A DNA stretch of 64,000 nucleotides from Kalmusia sp. IMI 367209 (Eukaryota; Ascomycota; Dothideomycetes; Pleosporales; Didymosphaeriaceae), in the NCBI GenBank assembly GCA_027946365.1, contig JAPEUQ010000008.1:1798001-1862000 (forward strand), given 5' to 3'. Below the pieces are notes generated by a model, which was not told the origin of the DNA, did no database searches, and worked only from the letters and a program-made list of their open reading frames with translations. The first letter of the stretch is position 1, and each line of letters opens with the position of its first letter. Positions 30,045 to 33,834 of the stretch are shown here, piece after piece. The position numbers and the translations under genes were made by a program.

Positions 30045-32309
30045 ATGCCGTCTATCGTGCATCCATCATTGATCACCCCCACTGGATTCTTCAAAGAGAA
30101 GACGAGCGAGCATCTGCCTCCCGCCTTCACGGCCGTGAATGGAAGAAGTTCCCCACCTTCGCCGCCTAGGTTGAATGGTGTCAACGGCATGACCGCCAAC
30201 GCTGCCCAGCGACCGGAATCTCGTCCTAGTCCTGACCGCCAACAACAAGAGCCAAAAGCTCGCTTGCCTACCACTACCAGGGACAACTGGACGCCACCGC
30301 GGCCGGCAACCGAGAATCTGCAACACAACAACCATCAGAACGGCCACCAGAACGGCCAAGCTTCCAGCTCACCGACCCTCTCTGACCAGGACAGGTCGCC
30401 CTTGAGCCCCGGCAAGAGGAAAAGATCAGTCTCATCCGAGGACAATCGCTCGCTCCCTTCGCCAGACGGTGCCTCAGGACCGCGTCGCCGCTTGGATTCG
30501 TACCCTTCCATGCGAGGAAGTGACTCTCCCAACACCGTCGCCCAAGTTCAGCAATTGGCGGCCATGGAGCACCCACCGACGCGGGTGTTGCCTCCGGTGG
30601 ACCGAATCGATACCGAAGGGCCTTGGCCACCATCGCATGACCCACCGCACAATGGCTATCACGAAGCTCCCCATCGTGATATACTCAACCCCATGGACGC
30701 GGACTCGAGCCACAGCAGTGCCAGTCAGACACGGATGGACGCAACGAACGGCTTCGAGCGGTCGAGCACGACTGAGATTACGCGCGCTGGCGTCCAGGTG
30801 GATCCCAAGAAACGGAAGAGGGTGAGCGCAAATTCTCTCCATGTCTAAACGCCTCTAACCATGGTAGCAATTTGCCAATCGAACCAAGACAGGTTGTGGA
30901 ACATGCCGAAGGCGGAAGAAGAAATGCGACGAAGCGAAGCCTGAGTGTACGTTTCTCCTCCCCCACTCCCCCTTTTTTTTTTGGTTTTGTCTTTAATTAC
31001 CCTTTTTTCCAAAGCTGATCTTACCCAAGGCAACAATTGCCAGCGTGGAGGGTTCATCTGCGAAGGTTATGCCAACAAGGTGCCATGGCCCAAGAACGGC
31101 ATCCCGAAACCACATCCTCCTTTGCAAGCCAAGGATAGGTACACAGGCGATGCAACGCAGCTCTATCATAGGTAAGACACTCCGCGCTTACAAGATGGCC
31201 TCCTTTTAATCTTCGGTCAGCCATGGCCCACCCCGAGAAGGCTATGCCGAATCAAGTTCTCCCAATGGAACTGACGGCGCTCGTGGCCGTCCCATTCTTG
31301 TTGAAGAGCATGATCGTCCTCTTGCAAGAAGGAGTTGGGCGAACGGATGGGGCGATAGTTCCCGTCCCGTATATTCGCAAGAACAGCAGCTACATGCCGA
31401 GTATGCGCATGCAAACCACGGCCGTCCTGCTTCAAGTGAGCAGCATCTACCACCCTCTACGCAAGCACCACCTCGACAACACAACTCTCGTATCTACCAC
31501 CACACGCAGCAGACTATGAGAGAGAACCTGAACAACGCTCCTCCGGTCACTGCAGAACAATCGACGCACCATCAACCACTGATGGTTGCCCATGCCGCTG
31601 GGCCTTCTGGACCAAGTCCTACGCATTACCCTCCCCTACCACCACCTAGGCATGAGAAAAGCGAAAAGGCAAAAATGATCGACGGGGAGCCCTTTCTTCC
31701 CTTTGACAGACAACTGATTGGGGAACGCGACAAGTGCAAAAACGCCGTGTATCAATACAACAATACGAACAACCCGAATTTAAAAATATCTACCGATGAG
31801 GTCGGTCGATATCTTCATGCCATCCTGGCCGCAAATTGGACACAGTCATATGCTGGCAACGCACCCTGTGGACATTTGGGGAAAAATGTCTTTGTCGATA
31901 CGCCGTTTATGTGTGATTATGGGTACAATATCCACATTGGCAACAATGTCGACATCGGAACGCAATGCAAATTTTTGGACTCGGGCGAGATTACGATAGG
32001 GAGAAACACGTCCATCGGTGCGAATGTGACCATCGACACTGTCAAAACGCCGACAGATACCAGAGCCACCAAGGGCAGTGGTCGCACCTCTATGGCAGCC
32101 AAAGTTCACATTGGCGACAATGTCCATATTGGAGCTAATTGCACTATTCTCGCTGGTGTCAGTATCGGAGCAGGTGCCATCGTTCATCCCGGGTCTGTTG
32201 TTGTCCGAGTAAGTGTTTCCACAATTCTAGCGCGCGTTCTTCAAGCTGACATGCACAGGATATTCCGGCCAATTGCATTGCTCGAGGCAACCCTGCGGAT
32301 TATGTTTAG
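30045..32309 (+). CDS. Zn2Cys6 DNA-binding domain fused to a maltose-O-acetyltransferase-like domain
   Basis: Five exons (30045-30821, 30868-30946, 31030-31171, 31221-32208, 32259-32309) join in frame to 678 aa. Residues 1-250 are low-complexity Pro/Ser/Asn-rich. The basic KKRKR precedes a canonical binuclear zinc cluster, C269-x2-C272-x6-C279-x6-C286-x2-C289-x6-C296; the fourth Cys codon is split by an intron. After a disordered linker comes a Mac-type N-domain (from about 485: MIDGEPFLPFDRQLIGERDK), then left-handed hexapeptide repeats (IHIGNNVDIG, VHIGDNVHIG, ILAGVSIGAGAIVHPGSVV) ending DIPANCIARGNPADYV. In active LacA/Maa enzymes the catalytic His sits in a GHP motif; here the aligned place reads KTP (Thr609), so acetyl transfer is doubtful. 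Hexapeptide domains normally trimerise. Likely a nuclear regulator; the ligand and targets are unknown. Confidence 0.9.
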
Positions 32310-32731: not shown

Positions 32732-33834
32732 ATGCCGCCCAAGGCACCCTTCAATTGGGGCCTTTCCCCTCCTTCCTTCCTTTTGCCATCATCAACGCGC
32801 TCCCTATTGCCCTTGATCCCACTGTCACTGGCGCCGGTGCTAAAGCCCTCGCATACTACAATCCGCACCATCAAATCAACGAATACACCTCGCCCCGACC
32901 GCTTCGCACATCATCCCTCCAAACCCGCTCTCAATAGCACATCTAGAGCTGCTCTCCAGCGAAAGGCGCATTCGACGCCGCTCCGAACCGGCCTCCTTGC
33001 GCAAAAACGGGGCATGACAGCTGTGTTCGACCCCAGTACCGGAAAGCGCACAGCATGCACTGTGCTCCAGCTCGATCGCAACGAAGTCATTGCACACAAA
33101 ACACGGGAACAGAATGGATACTTTGCGGTGCAGGTGGGTGCGGGCCAGCGGCTGATTGCAAACACATCGAAGCCGATGCTAGGGCATTTCGCGATGGCGG
33201 GTGTGGAGCCAAAGAGGTGGGTGATGGAATTTAAGGTCAAAGGAAAGGACGGACTGCAAGTCGGGGTGGGCCAACAAATTGGTGCCAGCTGGTTTACGGC
33301 TGGTCAATATGTGGATGTCAAGGGAATATCTAGGGGTATGGGGTTTGAGGGCGTAAGTGCATTCCTTCGTATGTTAAGGTGGAATGCCTCATATCGAGAA
33401 GAGTGGCGGCCAGCAATGTAGAGGTTAACAACTTGCAGGGCATGAAACGGCACGGCTTTAGCGGTCAACCCGCGTCCCACGGTCAGTCGCTCATGCACCG
33501 TGGCATGGGTTCCGCAGGAGGTTCGCAGGGTTCAGGTTCGCGTGTGCTGCCCGGGAAGCGTATGGCAGGAAACATGGGCAACGAAAGTGTGACCGTGAAG
33601 AACCTCAAGGTGCTACAGGTTGACGAGTTGAACGGCATAGTCGTTGTGAATGGTATGCACACGTCTTTCTATATCTGAAGATCTGCTTGCTAATAGACGA
33701 TAGGCTGTGTCCCAGGTCCAAAGAACCAAATCATCAAGGTTTCGGATGCGATTGGTAAGCCTTGGCCTACAGGCCCCATGAAGATGGAAGATATAACACC
33801 GGCTGTGGCCGAGACGGCGGCTACGGCTGCGTAA
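32732..33834 (+). CDS. MRPL9: Mitochondrial ribosomal protein uL3m
   Basis: Large-subunit mitoribosomal protein of the L3 family. Exons are 32732-33352, 33439-33652 and 33704-33834, giving 321 aa. A basic Ser/Thr-rich presequence of about 90 residues precedes the L3 core: GLLAQKRGMTAVFD, then DVKGISRGMGFEGGMKRHGF across intron 1, and GKRMAGNMGNESVTVKNLKV. The C-terminal VVVNGCVPGPKNQIIKV spans intron 2. Each join reproduces the expected L3 continuity. The ATG at 32732 is the only good in-frame start. The yeast counterpart is Mrpl9. Confidence 0.95.

Follow-up and report, generated by a model that had tools for sequence, protein, structure and literature searches.

What might a sugar-acetyltransferase fold do at a promoter if, fused to a DNA-binding domain, it is catalytically dead? 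A gene of Kalmusia sp. IMI 367209 raises this question: in the 64,000-nucleotide stretch of DNA that we analysed (the window), one protein joins a Zn2Cys6 cluster to a maltose O-acetyltransferase (Maa)-like domain with a threonine at the place of the catalytic histidine. The point that our analysis supports well, and that we did not find in print, is that the catalytic residue appears to be gone not from this protein alone but throughout the sampled lineages of a known family of regulators.

One spliced gene encodes the cluster and the Maa-like domain

Five exons (30045–32309, + strand) splice into 678 codons plus a stop across four introns of 46, 83, 49 and 50 bases, all of them GT-AG. The first-pass annotation had described a 678-residue protein with a cluster from C269 to C296 and the residues K608-T609-P610 in the catalytic loop, Thr609 replacing the histidine, and splicing, translation and Pfam gave all of this again; the five exons that it had called matching in phase do join into a frame that runs 678 codons to the stop. 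The exon joins are bridged by predicted orthologue proteins such as P0002 and P0007, compared by eye. The features, in window coordinates, are as follows.

30045..30821, + strand: exon 1, start codon and N-terminal region, residues 1–259 (spliced frame)
30126..30140, + strand: FTAVN, conserved short motif, residues 28–32 (pattern count against shuffles)
30868..30946, + strand: exon 2, opening part of the Zn2Cys6 cluster (spliced frame)
30895..31061, + strand: Zn2Cys6 cluster C269–C296, split by intron 2 (Zn_clus 267–305, E 1.3e-9)
31030..31171, + strand: exon 3, final part of the cluster, then the opening of the linker, residues ~286–333
31221..32208, + strand: exon 4, remaining linker, Mac cap and most of the beta-helix, residues ~333–662
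31672..31773, + strand: Mac capping motif, residues 484–517 (PF12464, E 2.3e-8)
31957..31959, + strand: Gly579 at LacA Asn85 (Asn in 79/80 controls)
32047..32049, + strand: Thr609 at LacA catalytic His115 (His in 80/80 controls)
32068..32070, + strand: Thr616 at LacA Arg122 (Arg in 80/80 controls)
32125..32127, + strand: His635 at LacA Trp139, the tryptophan of acetyl-CoA users (Trp in 80/80 controls, a count biased upward)
32259..32309, + strand: exon 5, closing 16 residues plus stop (cf. the C-terminus of P0002)

The cluster cysteines are residues 269, 272, 279, 286, 289 and 296. Pfam also matches Hexapep at 628–660 (E 9.8e-13), and the Zn_clus, Mac and Hexapep matches each lie above the curated cut-off. 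The linker, which had been placed within exon 4, does run through that exon but not only there, since it starts in exon 3. Neither a Fungal_trans (middle homology) domain nor AROM domains are among the five Pfam matches of the protein, and Mac_assoc is unmatched in it; the same model (PF16628) matched nothing in this genome, in a search that matched no control either. Between cluster and C-terminal domain the longest run free of proline and glycine is at most 22 residues, and given this and the absence of Fungal_trans, an ordinary dimerising coiled coil is not evident. The next downstream gene on the + strand, at 32732–33421 and on, is one that we take to encode mitochondrial ribosomal protein uL3.

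The final 202 residues match solved maltose/galactoside O-acetyltransferases with E down to 5.4e-28; this alignment of the C-terminal region with LacA and Maa, proposed at first pass as a check, sets Thr609 opposite LacA His115. Among 63 such matches, the four solved enzymes with an alignment shown all have histidine at that place. AlphaFold, given the exon-4 part of the domain (residues 475–662) and 46 aligned sequences, returned a best model with mean pLDDT 86 and pTM 0.84, the remaining four of five models being weaker (mean pLDDT 67–71), and the solved structure nearest to the model is the maltose O-acetyltransferase 4isx (TM 0.80). Pfam, the solved matches and AlphaFold together place both a Mac cap and a left-handed beta-helix in the 678-residue protein. 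From this fold, with maltose O-acetyltransferases as its best solved matches, a homotrimer is expected.

The fusion is the architecture of FF-7

The fusion of Zn2Cys6 and Maa-like domains is not new: it is the architecture of FF-7 (Neurospora NCU04001, Botrytis Bcin04g03490, Fusarium FGSG_10069). That the two domains form a true fusion is borne out by sequence and already in print for this family (PMC4378982, PMC8079791), and the similar architectures that the first-pass annotation mentioned for other Pezizomycotina are published for FF-7 orthologues, which are reported only in that group (PMC8079791). By its shared architecture the gene is most likely an orthologue of Neurospora ff-7. From the genera with characterised members, our comparison took in P0062 of Botrytis sinoallii and P0156 of Fusarium fujikuroi, both found with a relative as query; the two have the same architecture and carry the cluster motif.

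According to PMC4378982, Neurospora FF-7 combines a Zn2Cys6 cluster with a putative O-acetyltransferase domain and shows weak co-purification with the GATA factor SUB-1. Its putative binding sites number 2756, the AACCGC motif being present in 117 of the top 200, and it is required for transactivation but not for light-induced nucleosome loss or eviction. Natural non-pathogenic mutants led to Bcin04g03490, for which acetylation of targets such as chromatin proteins is offered as a speculation (PMC8079791). The family is published as needed for sexual development and, in Botrytis, also for sporulation and pathogenicity; the Fusarium orthologue FGSG_10069 appears in a phenotype table (PMC3197617). 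Penicillium POX09752, which is reported to bear the signatures of a zinc cluster, of hexapeptide repeats and of a maltose/galactoside acetyltransferase, appears in a list of regulators of starch-digesting enzymes (PMC6318894).

The catalytic histidine is absent from all sampled family members

Using the window C-terminal domain, a Glutinoglossum relative and one further relative as queries, with the best 120 of 354 and the best 120 of 339 matches taken from the second and third searches, we found 238 proteins, of which 215 form the family set; 23 weak matches of the first search (P0027–P0049) were left out. A recognisable cluster motif is present in 126 of the 215. We count these separately, as the other 89, which lack one, may be fragments, other gene models or possibly free-standing relatives; among family proteins of at least 600 residues, the motif lies in the same chain in 119 of 136. 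The top matches of the window domain (P0001–P0023, at 49–75% identity to it, with a zinc-cluster domain precomputed in 17 of 23) are our Pleosporales-like set, whose named members we take to be Pleosporales. The sampled bearers of the fusion presumably span Pleosporales, other Dothideomycetes, Leotiomycetes, Sordariomycetes, several lichen-forming groups and Geoglossomycetes. The family set contains no named Eurotiomycete, Pezizomycete or Orbiliomycete; orthologues are reported in all three (PMC8079791).

When the family is aligned with E. coli LacA, histidine stands at LacA-115 in 0 of 215 proteins and likewise in none of the 126 that carry a recognisable cluster motif; the residues there are Leu in 158, Thr in 15, Met in 15, Val in 14, Tyr in 5 and others in 8. 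The bacterial LacA-like control loci (tblastn; the best 80 of 587 LacA relatives, hence close kin of each other) have it in 80 of 80, as do the other three genes with a Mac domain that the search detected in this genome and, outside the family count, the Mac-domain proteins P0027, P0028 and P0033 (3/3). A structure paper reports this histidine as common to all beta-helix family members crystallised by then (PMC3046976). The pseudoenzyme status that had been suggested for this protein is thus strongly supported for the FF-7-type C-terminal domain across the sampled lineages, as far as sequence can tell. We found no mention of a dead catalytic site of the FF-7 family in the open-access literature, and the main texts of PMC8079791 and PMC4378982 contain none of the terms catalytic, histidine, active site, trimer, acetyl-CoA and pseudoenzyme; the acetylation proposal made for Botrytis in the former accordingly rests on no site check.

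Two simpler accounts of Thr609 were considered. A local substitution or an assembly error is out, since the residue-609 column, singled out at first pass for comparison among orthologues, holds no histidine in any sampled lineage. A misaligned catalytic loop would be expected to leave a shifted histidine, which is not the rule: 190 of 215 proteins have none within two residues of LacA-115, 24 have one at +1 (the place of LacA Pro116) and one has it at +2. The +1 histidine occurs in P0062, P0075, P0080, P0083, P0100–P0109, P0111, P0112, P0128 and seven more; these 24 proteins include one of Botrytis, Monilinia and 13 of Colletotrichum gloeosporioides type. As their histidine adjoins the lost catalytic place, residual chemistry is conceivable in them.

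The 23 proteins left out of the family are other hexapeptide proteins. Aligned with LacA, 21 of them show histidine in 6, another residue or a gap in 14 and an uncovered position in 1; aligned with the free-standing L001 protein of this genome, 7 of 21 have it. P0027, P0028 and P0033 combine Mac/hexapeptide with other enzyme domains, judged from Pfam numbers and one source name. The L001 gene itself (861–1517, − strand, G000 contig 26) is of Maa type with an intact THP motif, and an open frame adjoins it that we read as an isoprenylcysteine methyltransferase. L002 and L004 are two more Mac-domain genes of this genome in which the histidine is kept.

The active site looks eroded in two steps

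The repeats had been described as otherwise well kept. This is true of the fold, whereas in the active site the counterparts of Asn85, Arg122 and Trp139 have changed too: at LacA positions 85, 115, 122 and 139 the 678-residue protein has Gly579, Thr609, Thr616 and His635. Asn85, which we take to be an acceptor-site residue, is kept in 1 of 215 family proteins (Gly in 202) and in 79 of 80 bacterial controls. Arg122 is present in 0 of 23 Pleosporales-like proteins vs 192 of 192 other family members, and Trp139 in 6 of 23 vs 172 of 192, or 178 of 215 over the whole family. The control count for Trp139 is biased upward, as the retrieval patterns included IGNNVWIG; the histidine was in no pattern. 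Control positions classed as "other" were compared in 48 of the 80 bacterial loci only.

Erosion thus looks to have had two steps, His115 and Asn85 being lost family-wide and Arg122 and mostly Trp139 in the Pleosporales-like set. In the rest of the family, where Arg122 and mostly Trp139 are still present, the pocket may have been retained.

In two trees of the domain a long branch (0.66 and 0.50 changes per column) leads to the Pleosporales-like set, and neither tree dates the loss of the histidine. On the tree without L021 and L004, two free-standing proteins of this genome fall among the fused ones and the fused set takes two changes, and a single fused clade is not rejected (p-AU 0.23); the histidine label needs 2 changes on both trees, the first of which includes the mis-cut control L021.

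Conservation and loss-of-function alleles point to a needed fold

We measured identities against the 678-residue protein. In 15 full-length Pleosporales-like proteins with the cluster motif the means are 95% for the DNA-binding part, 61% for the beta-helix, 51% for the linker and 45% for the N-terminal region; in 104 other relatives they are 79%, 40%, 26% and 25%. Within the otherwise poorly conserved N-terminal region sits an FTAVN-type motif. The pattern F[TS][AS][VILS]N occurs within residues 1–150 of 130 of the 136 family proteins of at least 600 residues, vs a mean of 0.14 over 50 shuffles, and we regard it as a candidate docking motif.

Two missense alleles in the Botrytis domain, Y633D and G722R, are reported as loss-of-function (PMC8079791). 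We mapped them through the Botrytis sinoallii protein, which is one residue shorter, with an offset of one taken from the matching residues. Y633D hits the CDYGYN tyrosine, which all 215 family proteins have; G722R hits the counterpart of LacA Gly159, a glycine in 175 of the 215 but His655 in the window protein, a point against the scaffold reading given below. Neither falls on the catalytic loop, and both look like fold positions. Loss of function at such residues implies that the domain is needed, which fits a structural role.

A pseudoenzyme scaffold is the favoured reading

We think it probable that the Zn2Cys6-Maa protein is a pseudoenzyme scaffold, most likely homotrimeric, that provides avidity and partner contacts for a transactivator. 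The Zn2Cys6 cluster would contact DNA, while the C-terminal domain, lacking its catalytic histidine, would serve as a rigid beta-helix module and most likely as a homotrimer; the presumed trimer would gather several DNA-binding arms, giving avidity for short single sites, and the surface of the domain may receive partners such as the GATA factor SUB-1. Weak contacts with single sites and with SUB-1 would then sum up, and promoters opened by other factors would be transactivated. The partner surface could instead sit in the disordered parts, where the FTAVN-type motif is conserved (130/136). More tentatively, and with somewhat less than even confidence, we suggest that the whole family is a trimer-forming pseudoenzyme factor holding three Zn2Cys6 arms, in which Pleosporales also lost the cofactor site to leave a pure scaffold.

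The main rival is a dead ligand sensor, in which binding of acetyl-CoA, CoA or a sugar would let the domain inform the DNA-binding part of metabolic state. Family members beyond the Pleosporales-like set keep Arg122 (192/192) and mostly Trp139 (172/192) though His115 is gone in all, and a common tryptophan, supplied by the adjoining subunit, is reported to mark acetyl-CoA users (PMC3046976). In amylose, ff-7 expression is reported to depend on the carbon regulator COL-26 (PMC8495738), and the AROM-derived repressor QutR, thought to respond to an inducer, offers a parallel. Against this, with Arg122 in 0 of 23 and Trp139 in 6 of 23, CoA sensing as a family-wide role would have been given up in the Pleosporales-like set, and the erosion of both residues there weakens an acetyl-CoA sensor for the 678-residue protein. 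We therefore consider sensing the less likely reading and, overall, an unlikely one, with more in its favour where Arg122 and Trp139 survive and less in the lineage of the window protein.

Continued catalysis, in which other residues would let the domain acetylate chromatin or another protein, is less supported than a ligand sensor. It was proposed for Botrytis (PMC8079791), and the 24 proteins with a histidine one place on could be cited for it. With the catalytic histidine in 0 of 215 proteins, its place mostly Leu (158), Asn85 in only 1 of 215 and FF-7 dispensable for light-induced nucleosome loss (PMC4378982), we regard it as quite improbable. That the domain persists with no function, or that gene prediction produced the fusion as an artefact, is a reading to which the long Pleosporales-like branch might lend itself, but it is largely refuted, and hardly credible, in view of a domain conserved above the linkers (40–61% vs 26–51% mean identity), the cluster motif in the same chain in 119 of 136 long proteins and the loss-of-function missense alleles in the domain (PMC8079791).

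The scaffold reading, and the wider judgement that the C-terminal domain is more likely a structural or binding module than the annotated enzyme, bear on regulators of some reach, as FF-7 orthologues are reported to govern sexual development, light-responsive genes and infection in plant-associated species. If the domain is dead, the chromatin-acetylation proposal for Botrytis fails. If the protein is trimeric, it would be unusual among binuclear-cluster factors, whose binding is described as monomeric or dimeric (PMC8079791). The lineages that keep the cofactor site and those that have lost it form a natural test of sensor against scaffold.

Comparison with known systems

The window protein and the FF-7 family have in common the domain order, a mid-chain cluster, a long linker and a Maa-like C-terminus. 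They differ in that the published architecture is Zn2Cys6, Mac_assoc and LbH_MAT_GAT, whereas the window protein has no Mac_assoc match; in that its Arg122 and Trp139 are gone, unlike in FF-7-type proteins outside the Pleosporales-like set, which mostly keep Trp139; and in that the tail is called a (putative) acetyltransferase in print, where we did not find the loss of the catalytic histidine. With the enzymes Maa, LacA and NodL the protein shares both the Mac cap and the left-handed beta-helix; it differs from them in lacking the catalytic His, Asn85, Arg122 and Trp139 and in being fused to a DNA-binding domain. Other fungal regulators built from enzymes thought to be inactive do exist, and the AROM-derived QutR, GaaX and TanX of filamentous fungi likewise represent a metabolic enzyme turned gene regulator (PMC10512348). 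They differ in deriving from another enzyme, in acting as separate proteins beside a Zn2Cys6 partner rather than fused to one, and in having inducers that are known or proposed.
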